Shown here: in pieces, positions 10,526 to 54,997 of the stretch | Layout of the letters: each line of letters opens with the position of its first letter | Numbering within the stretch: position 1 is the first letter of the stretch | Source: Streptobacillus moniliformis DSM 12112 | Lineage (GTDB): Bacteria > Fusobacteriota > Fusobacteriia > Fusobacteriales > Leptotrichiaceae | Assembly (NCBI RefSeq): GCF_000024565.1 | Contig: NC_013515.1 | Span: 558,001 to 622,000 of the forward strand | Reading direction: 5' to 3' | Length of the DNA: 64,000 nt | Translations under genes and position numbers: made by a program | The notes under the pieces: generated by a model | The model's database searches: none | The model's input: the letters and a program-made list of their open reading frames with translations, nothing else | What the model was told of the DNA's origin: nothing

Positions 10526-10554
10526 TTGACAAAATAAGTCGGGGGGGGGATAAT
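10526..10554 (+). promoter_or_regulatory. promoter with poly-G tract in the spacer, outer-membrane cassette copy 1
   Basis: TTGACA (10526-10531) and GATAAT (10549-10554) are separated by 17 bp, the optimal spacing. The spacer contains part of a run of nine G (10541-10549) whose last G is the first base of the -10 box. Gain or loss of one G would change spacer length and so promoter strength, as known for poly-C promoters of neisserial porA and opc. A homologous promoter with a different G-rich repeat lies at 53499. Phase variation is inferred, not shown. Confidence 0.75.
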
Positions 10555-10585: not shown

Positions 10586-11165
10586 ATGAAAAAATAATAT
10601 TATTAATAATCCTATACATAGGAATACTATCATTTCCAATAGAACTAACAGGACCAAGATATAAGATAGATCTAAACATAGTAGCAGGATACAGACCTGA
10701 TCCACATGATAGGAATAGACCATTGGAATTTAAAGGAGACTTCAATAATGTGGATATAGAAGTGGGCTTTTCACCAGAATGGACACTTAATATTAATAAA
10801 AACTTTGAAATAGTATTTGGACCAAAACTTACAGTAGTCCTATTTGTTTCTCATTATTTAAATATTAGTGATGAGCCTGAAAGAGAGATATTTTTTGGAA
10901 TAAGCTCAGGAGCAAGAGTAGACTTTGATTATATAATAAAGAAGAATATTAAGCTATATGCAGCATTAGAAGCAGCAGCAACAGTTAGACCAGATATACA
11001 TATTTCAAGTATTTCTAATGATGGAAAAAATATTCTATTAACTGTTCATCCAACAAAAGATTTGCTATAGGAACAAAAATAAAGAGATATAATGTAGGGT
11101 TATATACAGGATATGGATTTCATAAGGAATTAGTAGGTGGAATAGAAGTAGGGTATTCTTTTTAG
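10586..11165 (+). pseudogene. outer-membrane beta-barrel protein A, copy 1 (frameshifted)
   Basis: Homologue of the intact gene at 53565-54152. The ATG at 10586 is followed by a six-A run (10589-10594) and a stop after three codons; one more A would open a frame encoding a signal peptide (MKKIILLIILYIGILSFP) and the mature protein. A second lesion is a 7-bp deletion relative to copy 2 at about 11057, which makes the frame end at 11070 with HPTKDLL. The stop equivalent to that of copy 2 is at 11165. Bases 10684-11056 are identical to 53664-54036, while the flanks diverge. The intact relative ends in Phe, typical of outer-membrane barrels. Function unknown. Confidence 0.8.
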
Positions 11166-11185
11166 TGTAGGAAGGGAGAAATAAG

Positions 11186-11955
11186 ATGAAGAAAATAATA
11201 TTAGTTCTATTAATAGGTATAACATCATTTAGTGCACCTATAACTAGACAGATAAATAGAAGAGTAAATGAAGTAAGAAAAGTAGAGAGAGTAAAAAAGT
11301 AGAAAAAGTAAAGAAAATAAATAAAATAGAAGAAATTAGGGAAGTAAAAAAAGAAAAAGAAGTAAAAACTAGAAAGCCATCTAAGATAAAGAAACCAAGA
11401 TATAGGGTAGGAATGGAGATAAGTACATTACCAATATATCATACAAAAACAAAAATGTTTGGATATTATGCCTATAAATCTTTTTCATTTTTACCAGAGT
11501 GGAAGATAGATGTTACCAGAGATTTTGATGTAACAATAGGACCAAAGTTTTCAGCAAATTTAGTATTTGGGGTAAATAACAGAAATAGATCAGATTATAC
11601 ACAATTCGTAATAGACAAAGATGAAATAATAGTATCAGCATCAGTAGGAGAAGAAGTAGATTTTAATTATAGACTAAGAGATAATTTAAAGGCATATATA
11701 GGCTTAGAAGCACAAGTAGGAATAGGTGAGAGAATATATACTAAGTCAGGACTATATGATACAGGAAAGAAAATTGAGGGAAGCTCAGAAAATGCTTTTA
11801 AACCATATACACCTTATATAATATTTAACAACACTCATATTATGTATAGTGGAAAAGTGTCAGCTGGACTTAAGATAAGGGATAAGTATAATATTGCCTT
11901 ATATGGTGGATATGGTAAGGGTTATTTTGGGATTGAGTTTGGACAGACATTTTAA
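11186..11955 (+). pseudogene. outer-membrane beta-barrel protein B, copy 1 (frameshifted)
   Basis: Homologue of the intact gene at 54173-54943. It starts with a signal peptide (MKKIILVLLIGITSFSAP) at 11186 but stops at 11300 in a Lys/Val/Glu-rich stretch. One extra A in the six-A run at 11293-11298 would join it to the downstream frame. That frame runs from the low-complexity charged linker into the barrel domain (MEISTLPIYHTKTKMFG, then ends GIEFGQTF, a C-terminal aromatic residue). The barrel domain is a paralogue of protein A (FLPEWKIDV against FSPEWTLNI, with a shared LGPK/FGPK motif). The open 3' part (from 11413) is long and well conserved, so the lesion is recent or reversible. Confidence 0.75.
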
Positions 11956-40725: not shown

Positions 40726-40750
40726 AAGAAGACATAATGTCTTCTTTTTT
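40726..40750 (+). terminator. terminator after rplA
   Basis: AAGAAGAC, loop ATAAT, GTCTTCTT followed by T. The IS91-type element begins within 5 bases of its T tract. Confidence 0.92.
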
Positions 40751-40895
40751 ATTTTTCTATAGGAAATTAAAAAAATATCCAAGATAAAAAAATAAAAGAA
40801 AATAGTAAAAAAATATTGATAAAGAAAAGAAAAATTAATAGAATAAAAAATAAGAGAACAACAAAACTACCTATCATAAAAATAGGCATAATATA

Positions 40896-42119
40896 TTAAT
40901 TATAGAACTTATGAATAGGAGGAGAAAGACCATTATCAATAAATAGTTCATAACGTTTAAGATAAATATTACAATGAGGACACATAAAAGGGTCAAAGTC
41001 CCAAAGTTCTTTAAAGTTTTTCCTAAATAAAGAAAGAGACTTTTTATTAACCTGAGCTTTAAGATAAAATAGAGACATTTTAACTTTAGAAGAAATTCTT
41101 CTAGCATAGAAACCATATCTATTAATCATTTTAAAATACTTTAAAGGTAGATGAAAAAGCACTTTAGCAACAAAATCTTTAAAAGATAAAGTAGAATAAG
41201 TAACTTCTTTATTATTACTTAAATCTTCAAATTTAAATGTAAGAGAATTTTTATTAAAATCAATATTAACAATCTTATATTCAGCAATAGGAACTCTTGA
41301 TAAATATCTACCAAGATATTTAATAATGTATTTAGGATTATTAATATCATTACCAGCTACATTAAAAAAGAACCTAACATCATTATCATAAACATTAGAT
41401 ACAGCTTTTTTAGCTTGTATTTTAATAATATCATTAGGATAATTAGCATTACTAATTAATTTACAAAGAGAAAACTTCCATTGATTAGCAATAGAGGGGA
41501 CATGAAAGTATTTAAGTTCTTTATATTGAAATTTTTTATTAAAACCTCCAAGAGAGATGATGGCATGAATATGAGGATTAAACTTAAGGTCTCTACCAAA
41601 AGTATGAATAACAGTAATAAGTCCGTAGTTAATAATATCAGAATTAGTAAAGTAATTAGGATTAGATTTAGGGATATATATTTTTCTTTTAACTTTATCT
41701 TTGATATTATGGAATTGATATTTAAAAATATTATTAATAGCTTTAGACATTTTAGAAAGAATAGATCTATCATAAGCAATAAATTTTCTAAATTCTTTAG
41801 GGACAGTAAAAAGGACATGCCTATGAGGGATGTTAATAAATTGTTTTAAGATAGAATTAGTCCAATTAACAGAATAGTTATAACCACAAGATGGACAAAG
41901 TCTAGATTTACAAGTAAGTTTCATTTTATGTTGAAAATTACAAGAGGAACAACGATAAGAGATAAAGCCTTTAGAGAGATTACCACAGTTAAGAAAATTA
42001 TGAATGGAATGGTTGATATGTTCAATATGTTTTTTATCAAAATATGGCTTGATAGAATTAATAGAATTTGTTAAAATATATTTGGAGAAGATAGATTTAA
42101 TTTTATTAGAATTATACAT
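40896..42119 (-). CDS. IS91-like rolling-circle transposase, copy 1
   Basis: 407 residues. The N-terminal zinc-binding domain has Cys45, 57, 60, 70, 75 and 78 (RCSSC, then CKSRLCPSCG). The HUH motif is NPHIHAIISLGG (His183, His185). The Y2-type motif is YLGRY with Tyr268 and Tyr272 four apart. These are the features of IS91/ISCR single-strand transposases, which nick with tyrosine and replicate by rolling circle. AAGGAG lies 8 bases before the ATG. Identical in protein sequence to copy 2. Confidence 0.9.
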   Translation of the reverse strand: MYNSNKIKSIFSKYILTNSINSIKPYFDKKHIEHINHSIHNFLNCGNLSKGFISYRCSSCNFQHKMKLTCKSRLCPSCGYNYSVNWTNSILKQFINIPHRHVLFTVPKEFRKFIAYDRSILSKMSKAINNIFKYQFHNIKDKVKRKIYIPKSNPNYFTNSDIINYGLITVIHTFGRDLKFNPHIHAIISLGGFNKKFQYKELKYFHVPSIANQWKFSLCKLISNANYPNDIIKIQAKKAVSNVYDNDVRFFFNVAGNDINNPKYIIKYLGRYLSRVPIAEYKIVNIDFNKNSLTFKFEDLSNNKEVTYSTLSFKDFVAKVLFHLPLKYFKMINRYGFYARRISSKVKMSLFYLKAQVNKKSLSLFRKNFKELWDFDPFMCPHCNIYLKRYELFIDNGLSPPIHKFYN

Positions 42120-42175
42120 TATATTGACTCCTTTCTGTTATTTGGTTTGGCGATTAAATTATACAGAAAAAGAAG

Positions 42176-42220
42176 AGGTGATTCAAGAATTTTTTTTGAA
42201 ATTCTTAATCACCTTTTTTT
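42176..42220 (+). terminator. strong hairpin at the right end of IS copy 1
   Basis: AGGTGATT-C-AAGAATTT pairs with AAATTCTTAATCACCT (one bulged C), followed by seven T. It can terminate plus-strand transcription and lies at the transposase-proximal end of the element. The same structure is at 53417-53461 in copy 2. It could also be the recognised end (origin or terminus) for rolling-circle transposition. Confidence 0.75.
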
Positions 42221-42224
42221 AAAT

Positions 42225-42262
42225 AAAAAAAGAATTATTACTAAAATTATTAGAATAATTCT
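42225..42262 (-). terminator. terminator of the upp-RDAC unit
   Basis: On the minus strand: AGAATTATT (42262-42254), loop, AATAATTCT (42239-42231), then a T tract that is shared with the right end of the IS. Confidence 0.75.
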
Positions 42263-51960: not shown

Positions 51961-51994
51961 GAAATTTCTACAAAATGGAAATTTCTTTTTTTTT
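51961..51994 (+). terminator. terminator after the MATE gene
   Basis: GAAATTTC (51961-51968) and GAAATTTC (51978-51985) pair, followed by nine T. The second IS copy starts one base after the T run. Confidence 0.85.
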
Positions 51995-52136
51995 ATTCTA
52001 TAGGAAATTAAAAAAATATCCAAGATAAAAAAATAAAAGAAAATAGTAAAAAAATATTGATAAAGAAAAGAAAAATTAATAGAATAAAAAATAAGAGAAC
52101 AACAAAACTACCTATCATAAAAATAGGCATAATATA

Positions 52137-53360
52137 TTAATTATAGAACTTATGAATAGGAGGAGAAAGACCATTATCAATAAATAGTTCATAACGTTTA
52201 AGATAAATATTACAATGAGGACACATAAAAGGGTCAAAGTCCCAAAGTTCTTTAAAGTTTTTCCTAAATAAAGAAAGAGACTTTTTATTAACCTGAGCTT
52301 TAAGATAAAATAGAGACATTTTAACTTTAGAAGAAATTCTTCTAGCATAGAAACCATATCTATTAATCATTTTAAAATACTTTAAAGGTAGATGAAAAAG
52401 CACTTTAGCAACAAAATCTTTAAAAGATAAAGTAGAATAAGTAACTTCTTTATTATTACTTAAATCTTCAAATTTAAATGTAAGAGAATTTTTATTAAAA
52501 TCAATATTAACAATCTTATATTCAGCAATAGGAACTCTTGATAAATATCTACCAAGATATTTAATAATGTATTTAGGATTATTAATATCATTACCAGCTA
52601 CATTAAAAAAGAACCTAACATCATTATCATAAACATTAGATACAGCTTTTTTAGCTTGTATTTTAATAATATCATTAGGATAATTAGCATTACTAATTAA
52701 TTTACAAAGAGAAAACTTCCATTGATTAGCAATAGAGGGGACATGAAAGTATTTAAGTTCTTTATATTGAAATTTTTTATTAAAACCTCCAAGAGAGATG
52801 ATGGCATGAATATGAGGATTAAACTTAAGGTCTCTACCAAAAGTATGAATAACAGTAATAAGTCCGTAGTTAATAATATCAGAATTAGTAAAGTAATTAG
52901 GATTAGATTTAGGGATATATATTTTTCTTTTAACTTTATCTTTGATATTATGGAATTGATATTTAAAAATATTATTAATAGCTTTAGACATTTTAGAAAG
53001 AATAGATCTATCATAAGCAATAAATTTTCTAAATTCTTTAGGGACAGTAAAAAGGACATGCCTATGAGGGATGTTAATAAATTGTTTTAAGATAGAATTA
53101 GTCCAATTAACAGAATAGTTATAACCACAAGATGGACAAAGTCTAGATTTACAAGTAAGTTTCATTTTATGTTGAAAATTACAAGAGGAACAACGATAAG
53201 AGATAAAGCCTTTAGAGAGATTACCACAGTTAAGAAAATTATGAATGGAATGGTTGATATGTTCAATATGTTTTTTATCAAAATATGGCTTGATAGAATT
53301 AATAGAATTTGTTAAAATATATTTGGAGAAGATAGATTTAATTTTATTAGAATTATACAT
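52137..53360 (-). CDS. IS91-like rolling-circle transposase, copy 2
   Basis: 407 residues, identical in protein sequence to the copy at 40896-42119, with the same six zinc-ligand cysteines, the His183/His185 HUH motif and the Tyr268/Tyr272 pair. Intact, so it may still be active. Confidence 0.9.
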   Translation of the reverse strand: MYNSNKIKSIFSKYILTNSINSIKPYFDKKHIEHINHSIHNFLNCGNLSKGFISYRCSSCNFQHKMKLTCKSRLCPSCGYNYSVNWTNSILKQFINIPHRHVLFTVPKEFRKFIAYDRSILSKMSKAINNIFKYQFHNIKDKVKRKIYIPKSNPNYFTNSDIINYGLITVIHTFGRDLKFNPHIHAIISLGGFNKKFQYKELKYFHVPSIANQWKFSLCKLISNANYPNDIIKIQAKKAVSNVYDNDVRFFFNVAGNDINNPKYIIKYLGRYLSRVPIAEYKIVNIDFNKNSLTFKFEDLSNNKEVTYSTLSFKDFVAKVLFHLPLKYFKMINRYGFYARRISSKVKMSLFYLKAQVNKKSLSLFRKNFKELWDFDPFMCPHCNIYLKRYELFIDNGLSPPIHKFYN

Positions 53361-53416
53361 TATATTGACTCCTTTCTGTTATTTGGTTTGGCGATTAAAT
53401 TATACAGAAAAAGAAG

Positions 53417-53461
53417 AGGTGATTCAAGAATTTTTTTTGAAATTCTTAATCACCTTTTTTT
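53417..53461 (+). terminator. strong hairpin at the right end of IS copy 2
   Basis: Same bulged 16-bp stem and T tail as at 42176-42220. Here it would insulate the outer-membrane cassette from upstream plus-strand transcription. Confidence 0.75.
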
Positions 53462-53498
53462 AAATAAAATAACATCTTCTAATTAACCAACAAAAACA

Positions 53499-53534
53499 TT
53501 GACAAAATATAACGGTGGTGGTGGGGGGTATAAT
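53499..53534 (+). promoter_or_regulatory. promoter with G-rich repeat spacer, outer-membrane cassette copy 2
   Basis: TTGACA (53499-53504) and TATAAT (53529-53534) are both perfect, but the spacer is 24 bp because it contains three GGT units and six G (53514-53528). The equivalent spacer in copy 1 is 17 bp. A 24-bp spacing should be nearly inactive; loss of repeat units would restore it. Slipped-strand phase variation is inferred from the structure. Confidence 0.75.
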
Positions 53535-53564
53535 CTTATAGTAAAATAAGATTAGGAGAAGAAG

Positions 53565-54152
53565 ATGAATAGAATAATATTTTTAATGATGTTTCTAATG
53601 AGCCTGTTTTCATTTCCAATAGATATAACAGGACCAAATTACAGACTAGATTTAAATGTAGCAGCAGGATACAGACCTGATCCACATGATAGGAATAGAC
53701 CATTGGAATTTAAAGGAGACTTCAATAATGTGGATATAGAAGTGGGCTTTTCACCAGAATGGACACTTAATATTAATAAAAACTTTGAAATAGTATTTGG
53801 ACCAAAACTTACAGTAGTCCTATTTGTTTCTCATTATTTAAATATTAGTGATGAGCCTGAAAGAGAGATATTTTTTGGAATAAGCTCAGGAGCAAGAGTA
53901 GACTTTGATTATATAATAAAGAAGAATATTAAGCTATATGCAGCATTAGAAGCAGCAGCAACAGTTAGACCAGATATACATATTTCAAGTATTTCTAATG
54001 ATGGAAAAAATATTCTATTAACTGTTCATCCAACAATATTAGGAAGATTTGCTATAGGAACAAAAATAAAGAGATATAATGTAGGGTTATATACAGAATA
54101 CGGACTTAACAAAGAATTAGTAGGTGGAATAGAAGTAGGGTATTCTTTTTAG
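53565..54152 (+). CDS. small outer-membrane beta-barrel protein A, copy 2 (intact)
   Basis: 195 residues with a signal peptide (MNRIIFLMMFLMSLFSFPI) and alternating hydrophobic beta-strand patterns, ending GGIEVGYSF. A C-terminal Phe and strand-rich sequence fit an outer-membrane barrel of about eight strands. No named family recognised. It is followed after 20 bases by its paralogue protein B. Bases 53664-54036 are identical to the broken copy at 10684-11056 while the signal peptides differ, a pattern of gene conversion. Likely surface exposed and phase variable. Confidence 0.75.
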   Translation: MNRIIFLMMFLMSLFSFPIDITGPNYRLDLNVAAGYRPDPHDRNRPLEFKGDFNNVDIEVGFSPEWTLNINKNFEIVFGPKLTVVLFVSHYLNISDEPEREIFFGISSGARVDFDYIIKKNIKLYAALEAAATVRPDIHISSISNDGKNILLTVHPTILGRFAIGTKIKRYNVGLYTEYGLNKELVGGIEVGYSF

Positions 54153-54172: not shown

Positions 54173-54943
54173 ATGAAGAAAATAATATTAGTTCTATTAA
54201 TAGGTATAACATCATTTAGTGCACCTATAACTAGACAGAGAAATAGAAGAGTAAAAATAGAAGAAGTAAAGAAAATAGAAAAGATAGAAGAAAATTTAGA
54301 TAAAACAATAAATATAGAAGAAGTTATAGATAAAGAACCTAAGATAATTAAAAGAAAGAAGATAAATAAACCAAGATACAGAGTAGGAATGGAGATAAGT
54401 ACATTACCAATATATCATACAAAAACAAAAATGTTTGGATATTATGCATATAAGTCATTTTCTTTTTTACCAGAATGGAAGATAGATGTTAATGAAAACT
54501 TTGACATAACATTAGGACCAAAGATTTCAGCAAATCTAGTATTTGGAGTAAATAATAGAGATCAAATAAATAGTAATGAATATTCACAACAATCTATAAT
54601 AGATAAAAGTACAATAATAATATCAGCCTCAATAGGAGGAGAGATAGACTTTAATTATAGACTAAGAGATAATTTAAAAGCGTATGTAGGACTAGAAACA
54701 CAAATAGGAATAGGGGAGAAAATTTATACTAAGTCAGGGTTATATGATACAGGAGAGAAAAAAGAAGGACAAATAGAGAATACTTTTAAACCTTACACAC
54801 CATATCAAATATTCAAAAATACATATTTAACATATACTGGAAAGGTATCGGCAGGACTTAAGATAAGAGAGAAGTATAACATAGGAATATTTTTTGGATA
54901 TGGTAAGGGCTATTTTGGGATAGAGTTTGGACAAACATTTTAA
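54173..54943 (+). CDS. outer-membrane beta-barrel protein B, copy 2 (intact)
   Basis: 256 residues: signal peptide (MKKIILVLLIGITSFSAP), a charged Lys/Glu/Ile-rich linker (about 25-68), then a barrel domain starting RYRVGMEISTLPIYH and ending GYFGIEFGQTF. It shares PEW..(D/N)(I/V)N.NF(D/E)I.(L/F)GPK with protein A, so the two are tandem paralogues. Compared with copy 1, the first 60 bases are identical, the linker differs and the barrel has scattered changes in loops. Function unknown. Confidence 0.75.
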   Translation: MKKIILVLLIGITSFSAPITRQRNRRVKIEEVKKIEKIEENLDKTINIEEVIDKEPKIIKRKKINKPRYRVGMEISTLPIYHTKTKMFGYYAYKSFSFLPEWKIDVNENFDITLGPKISANLVFGVNNRDQINSNEYSQQSIIDKSTIIISASIGGEIDFNYRLRDNLKAYVGLETQIGIGEKIYTKSGLYDTGEKKEGQIENTFKPYTPYQIFKNTYLTYTGKVSAGLKIREKYNIGIFFGYGKGYFGIEFGQTF

Positions 54944-54951
54944 GCTACATT

Positions 54952-54991
54952 GCACTCCAAAGCTTGGATACAAGAATGGAGGTGCTTTTTT
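54952..54991 (+). terminator. terminator after the outer-membrane cassette
   Basis: GCACTCC (54952-54958) with GGAGGTGC (54978-54985, one bulge), then six T. Confidence 0.65.
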
Positions 54992-54997
54992 ATATTT

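Follow-up and report, generated by a model that had tools for sequence, protein, structure and literature searches.

A compound GGT/G spacer in a putative slippage-switch promoter of Streptobacillus moniliformis, one of about 37 promoters with G-rich spacers upstream of predicted surface or secreted proteins

Several bacterial promoters are known in which a repeat occupies the spacer between the -35 and -10 elements. In Neisseria meningitidis, a poly-G tract lies between these elements of the porA promoter (PMC3899988); in Treponema pallidum, the OmpW homologue tp0126 has a poly-G tract at the same position, with an optimum of 17 nt (PMC7864442); and hifA/hifB of Haemophilus influenzae carry a TA repeat in the promoter spacer (PMC3899988). 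Here we compare with these systems a promoter of Streptobacillus moniliformis DSM 12112, designated 53499 by its first position. As in porA, an outer-membrane protein gene follows a sigma-70-type promoter whose -35 and -10 are separated by a G tract, the length of which sets the spacing (PMC3899988), whereas Streptobacillus has tens of such promoters and the one at 53499 combines GGT units with a short G run in a compound spacer of 24 bp. With tp0126 it shares a poly-G spacer before a small beta-barrel gene, although no sequence relation is shown and triplet units are not described for tp0126 in the accessible text (PMC7864442). A non-homopolymer repeat within the spacer is also found at hifA/hifB (PMC3899988), but there it is a dinucleotide at a single divergent promoter and is not compounded with a G run. 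Besides, sister Streptobacillus species have GT/G spacers, compound repeats at the same position in an orthologous promoter set, although the unit is GT rather than GGT and the spacer is 20 bp in both cases. The type of mechanism is already known from porA and tp0126; in the open-access literature, we found no published report of phase variation in Streptobacillus or of such a promoter set.

The site lies in a window of 64,000 nucleotides, bases 558001 to 622000 of the 1,662,578-bp chromosome of DSM 12112 (NC_013515.1), the one S. moniliformis genome used here; coordinates are those of the window unless given as genome positions. Read directly, positions 53499 to 53534 are TTGACA-AAATATAAC-(GGT)3-G6-TATAAT, and the site and its surroundings comprise the following features.

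51983 to 53472, minus strand: IS91-family element (Pfam, NCBIfam) 5' of the promoter, its end about 30 bp before the -35
53499 to 53504, plus strand: -35 hexamer TTGACA (direct reading), identical at 37 genome sites
53505 to 53528, plus strand: 24-bp spacer, AAATATAAC-(GGT)3-G6, the longest of 37 in the genome (others 15 to 22)
53505 to 53513, plus strand: AAATATAAC, left part of the spacer (direct reading)
53514 to 53522, plus strand: (GGT)3 triplet repeat, the sole such promoter spacer in the 98 Fusobacteriota genomes searched
53523 to 53528, plus strand: G6 run; all other promoters of the set have longer ones (G9 to G13)
53529 to 53534, plus strand: -10 hexamer TATAAT (direct reading)
53554 to 53558, plus strand: ribosome-binding site AGGAG, 6 nt 5' of the ATG (direct reading)
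53565 to 54152, plus strand: intact open reading frame (ORF) of 195 aa with a signal peptide and a predicted 8-stranded beta-barrel, member of the Streptobacillus 'ITGPRYR' paralogue family
54173 to 54943, plus strand: second ORF of the cassette, 256 aa, one stretch of it related to the first ORF (32% identity)
54952 to 54992, plus strand: likely intrinsic terminator, GCACTCC...GGAGGTGC then a T run (inferred from direct reading)

This reading agrees with a first-pass annotation of the window, which had described perfect -35 and -10 boxes around a 24-bp spacer of GGT units plus G in the second of two cassettes. That annotation had also made the spacer 7 bp longer than that of the first copy, which holds if GATAAT is taken as the -10 of copy 1 (17 bp), but the boxes of copy 1 are not perfect. 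The ATG of the barrel gene begins 30 bp past the -10. Within the window, GGTGGTGG is confined to this site, with 2 overlapping matches where 0.11 would be expected (0 of 100 shuffles). Pairs of TTGACA and TATAAT at a spacing of 15 to 28 are not rare alone, with 2 found in the whole window against 1.15 expected; the weight of the observation rests on the G-rich spacer and its recurrence, not on the hexamer pair. Two characters of porA/tp0126-type promoters are present at 53499, namely consensus -35 and -10 boxes around a G-rich repeat, and a surface structure as the gene driven (signal peptide and 8-stranded barrel). A third, an unbroken tract of about 8 or more Gs, is lacking there, where G6 follows (GGT)3, and is found at the 36 other promoters of the set described below (G9 to G13).

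The AlphaFold2 model of the 195-aa product has eight strands after the signal peptide (pLDDT 84.5), and a Foldseek search returned OmpA, Ail, and OmpX as the closest solved folds (E value of 4e-6 to OmpA). Pfam and NCBIfam profiles gave no family for either ORF of the cassette (195 and 256 aa). As modeled, the 195-aa product has the fold, though not the sequence profile, of the small 8-stranded outer-membrane barrels (OmpA TM/OmpX/Ail/OmpW). The 256-aa protein had no relative in a scan of the named genomes.

Upstream, the IS91 element contains the domains Y2_Tnp and Zn_Tnp_IS91 (106.6 and 71 bits in Pfam) and matches the IS91 transposase model NF033538 with 216.9 bits against a cut-off of 125; it sits in a T-rich stretch past an upstream terminator-like sequence. 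At genome positions 1462211 and 1470439, matching upstream sequence occurs IS-free beside a retained G-tract promoter, and we therefore infer that the element arrived second and left the promoter intact. In the sister genomes G001 and G003, a MATE-type gene adjoins nadN and the 53499 cassette is absent from the locus; among these three genomes, only DSM 12112 has the two genes separated by the cassette and the IS91 element. The window holds two near-identical IS91-family elements (40742 to 42231 and 51983 to 53472, over 99.6%), both directly 3' of terminator-like sequences, and several near-identical copies adjoin poly-G surface-protein loci.

Genome-wide, TTGACA followed by at least 6 G within 26 bp was found at 37 sites, and the reversed-pattern control gave 0, which rules out a chance origin of the set. 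G runs of at least 9 numbered 38 among the matches listed, against about 0.2 expected under a first-order model. A -10-like hexamer is present at all 37 promoters (TATAAT at 23 and TATACT at 9). Spacers range from 15 to 22 bp with a mode of 19, and G runs from 9 to 13; 53499 alone has 24 bp and a run of 6, and it alone has (GGT)n. All 37 precede predicted surface or secreted proteins, the downstream ORFs of which have hydrophobic N-termini and fall into the following paralogue groups by similarity.

12 small proteins, family of the 53565 ORF (small 8-stranded barrels)
14 proteins of the trimeric-autotransporter type; YadA head, stalk, and anchor in 6 of 6 scanned, C-terminal OmpA domain in 2
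4 classical autotransporters (about 860 aa), the two scanned both matching autotransporter, autochaperone, and pertactin
3 proteins of about 180 aa; no informative Pfam match
3 proteins of up to 685 aa; no informative Pfam match
1 single protein of 480 aa; no informative Pfam match

With few exceptions, G tracts lie on the plus strand as far as about 630 kb and on the minus strand from about 900 kb; switch orientation is fixed for each chromosome half, probably following replication. Missing MutS was considered as a cause of unstable repeats and ruled out, two MutS-type genes being present in the genome. Members of the small barrel family also carry poly-G in the sequence that encodes the signal peptide, at genome positions 402726, 404272, and 1437810, two of them in frame and 404272 (G8) out of frame; the same family may also undergo translational switching.

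Sister Streptobacillus species carry the poly-G promoter set too. We paired promoters of two sister species with their DSM 12112 counterparts by flanking DNA, and among the 13 pairs that are at least 94% identical downstream, spacer length was unequal in 10. Examples of orthologous spacers are 16/12 bp at genome position 423053, 18/20 bp at 209861, and 17/16/20 bp at 1637659. Homopolymer counts of assemblies may be off by 1 and several of the orthologue differences are 1 bp; such error may account for some of these, but not for differences of 2 to 4 bp or for GT insertions. Within DSM 12112, the left flank AAATAAGTC is identical at sites with G9, G11, and G13. Because the spacer differs in 10 of 13 near-identically flanked pairs, the set recurs, and the control gave 0, the class is, on the evidence of sequence comparison, almost certainly phase-variable through its poly-G spacers, like porA of meningococci and tp0126 of Treponema. 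The orthologue of the 423053 promoter in G001 (G001:C17:21811) has just G6 and, at 12 bp, stands at the short end of the range of spacers.

The compound repeat was compared with paralogous and sister-species promoters, including those of two further copies of the cassette in DSM 12112.

10526 to 10554, plus strand: promoter of cassette 1, TTGACA-AAATAAGTC-G9-ATAAT, with a 17-bp spacer only if GATAAT is the -10
10586 to 11955, plus strand: reading frames of cassette 1, the first gene with one frameshift in the signal peptide and another further on, the second with an early stop

A third cassette, at genome position 652371 (650871 to 654335), matches cassette 1 over 1452 bp at 98.8% identity and has the same early frameshift; its spacer is G5TG4. 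In G001, the locus syntenic to genome position 112132 of DSM 12112 (flanks 88 to 91% identical) has AAATA-(GT)4-G7 against a pure G11 in DSM 12112, and a promoter of S. notomytis (G002) has CGTGTG9 against TCG10. Based on the G5TG4 paralogue and the GT/G compounds of the sister species, a course from a pure G tract through T interruption to unit expansion is plausible, and the GGT units probably arose in this way from a T-interrupted G tract. The compound repeat had been called unusual beforehand. Indeed, no (GGT)n was found between TTGACA and TATAAT in the other 97 of the 98 Fusobacteriota genomes searched, but the GT/G compounds in orthologous promoters of sister species show that compounding as such is less exceptional, and, judged by these comparisons, the spacer at 53499 is one product of a process that recurs. 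Interrupted or short G/GA-rich spacers also occur at genome positions 2811, 323675, 458415, 1072954, and 1633413, with 17 to 18 bp and mostly 5' of surface-type proteins, which suggests that interruption fixes the state, ON at those five sites and OFF at 53499. It is conceivable, though we hold this only tentatively, that interruption followed by expansion of 2- or 3-bp units is a recurrent route in Streptobacillus to fixing the state of a switch promoter, sites of 17 to 18 bp being probably locked ON and the 24-bp site locked OFF. If so, slippage promoters of the surface-gene set would at times enter a slow, quasi-stable regime and at times leave it.

Taken together, we consider it probable that 53499 is a member of about 37 poly-G slippage-switch promoters, that its tract decayed to (GGT)3-G6, and that it is OFF at 24 bp and rarely reverts. 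In such sigma-70-type promoters, a G tract filling the spacer between -35 and -10 would switch the surface-protein gene behind it through replication slippage: tract length would turn the gene ON or OFF, RNA polymerase operating near 17-bp spacing. At 53499, a T interruption would have split the G run and triplet units would have expanded until the spacer reached 24 bp, a spacing that would abolish initiation. The first-pass annotation had proposed both a cassette promoter with a slipping spacer and an OFF state. The former, with surface proteins as the products of the cassette, accords with the genome-wide set and the spacer differences between sister species; the latter is predicted because porA/tp0126-type promoters have a 17-nt optimum and no -35-like hexamer was found by direct reading 16 to 18 bp 5' of the TATAAT at 53529. 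Counted against this explanation is that the commonest spacer of the set is 19 and not 17, the 17-bp optimum being borrowed from other species. Reversion would require loss of two GGT units, giving 18 bp, or of two GGT units and one G, giving 17 bp, and with repeats as short as three GGT and six G it should be rare.

The strongest of the other explanations is that the promoter is dead and belongs to a decaying cassette, the growth of the spacer being neutral debris and the gene silent for good. Paralogous cassettes at 10526 and at genome position 652371 are indeed frameshifted, and the IS91 element lies just 5' of the site. However, at 53499 both ORFs are intact, with a signal peptide, a ribosome-binding site, and perfect hexamers, and the first gene has diverged by 8 to 11% from its paralogues yet contains no frameshift; permanent silence is unlikely.

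We consider it still harder to accept that 53499 is an active multi-state switch, in which GGT and G both slip often and expression is graded, as had been proposed at first. GGT and G are both tandem repeats, sister promoters contain GT/G compounds, and a 3-bp variable-number tandem repeat elsewhere in S. moniliformis has 5 to 11 copies among strains (PMC5093955). On the other hand, three GGT and six G fall below all pure tracts of the set (9 to 13 G), and lengths near 17 bp are at least two units distant, which speaks against many spacer lengths and graded expression. Besides, no length variant of 53499 occurred among the genomes compared, which include one S. moniliformis and, in G001 and G003, a locus that lacks the cassette.

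A different start, either an outward promoter borne by the IS element or an unseen box, might transcribe the gene and make the repeat irrelevant. A plus-strand promoter-like match does lie within the element at 53290 to 53318, but such matches are as frequent in shuffled sequence (5 against 4.2), the equal upstream sequences at 1462211 and 1470439 retain the G-tract promoter with the IS missing, and the direct reading offers no second -35; this explanation is improbable. Homopolymers are prone to sequencing error and the genome sequence is an older one, but three GGT units are unlike a typical homopolymer error and the same promoter class occurs in independently sequenced sister species, so an artefact of sequencing or assembly in the type-strain genome is hardly credible.

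Under the preferred reading of 53499 as a decayed slippage switch, this promoter with its perfect boxes offers a natural test of how tract interruption and the size of the repeat unit alter the rate of switching. The set also offers dozens of natural spacer lengths behind a common -35, with which the spacer rule of Fusobacteriota can be measured. About 37 slip-switch promoters on autotransporters and small barrels would leave the surface composition of a zoonotic pathogen largely to chance; S. moniliformis is the rat-bite-fever bacterium, and a stochastic surface would have consequences for serology and typing, for vaccine antigens, and for tissue tropism.

With respect to distribution, TTGACA-N(2-20)-G8-TATA occurs at 29 sites in DSM 12112, 20 in S. 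notomytis, and 17 in G001 (controls 0), and at no more than 3 sites in every other of the 98 Fusobacteriota genomes. The architecture is widespread, as matches outside the phylum show, and by these counts the large surface-protein set is a trait of Streptobacillus within its phylum. Exact TTGACA-x-G9-TATAAT promoters, among the matches listed, were found in many uncultured gut Clostridia, Bacilli, and Lachnospiraceae and in some Treponema and Selenomonadaceae, and some metagenome-assembled genomes, such as Lapin-003-2 bin5 and Lapin-023 bin43, contain several apiece.
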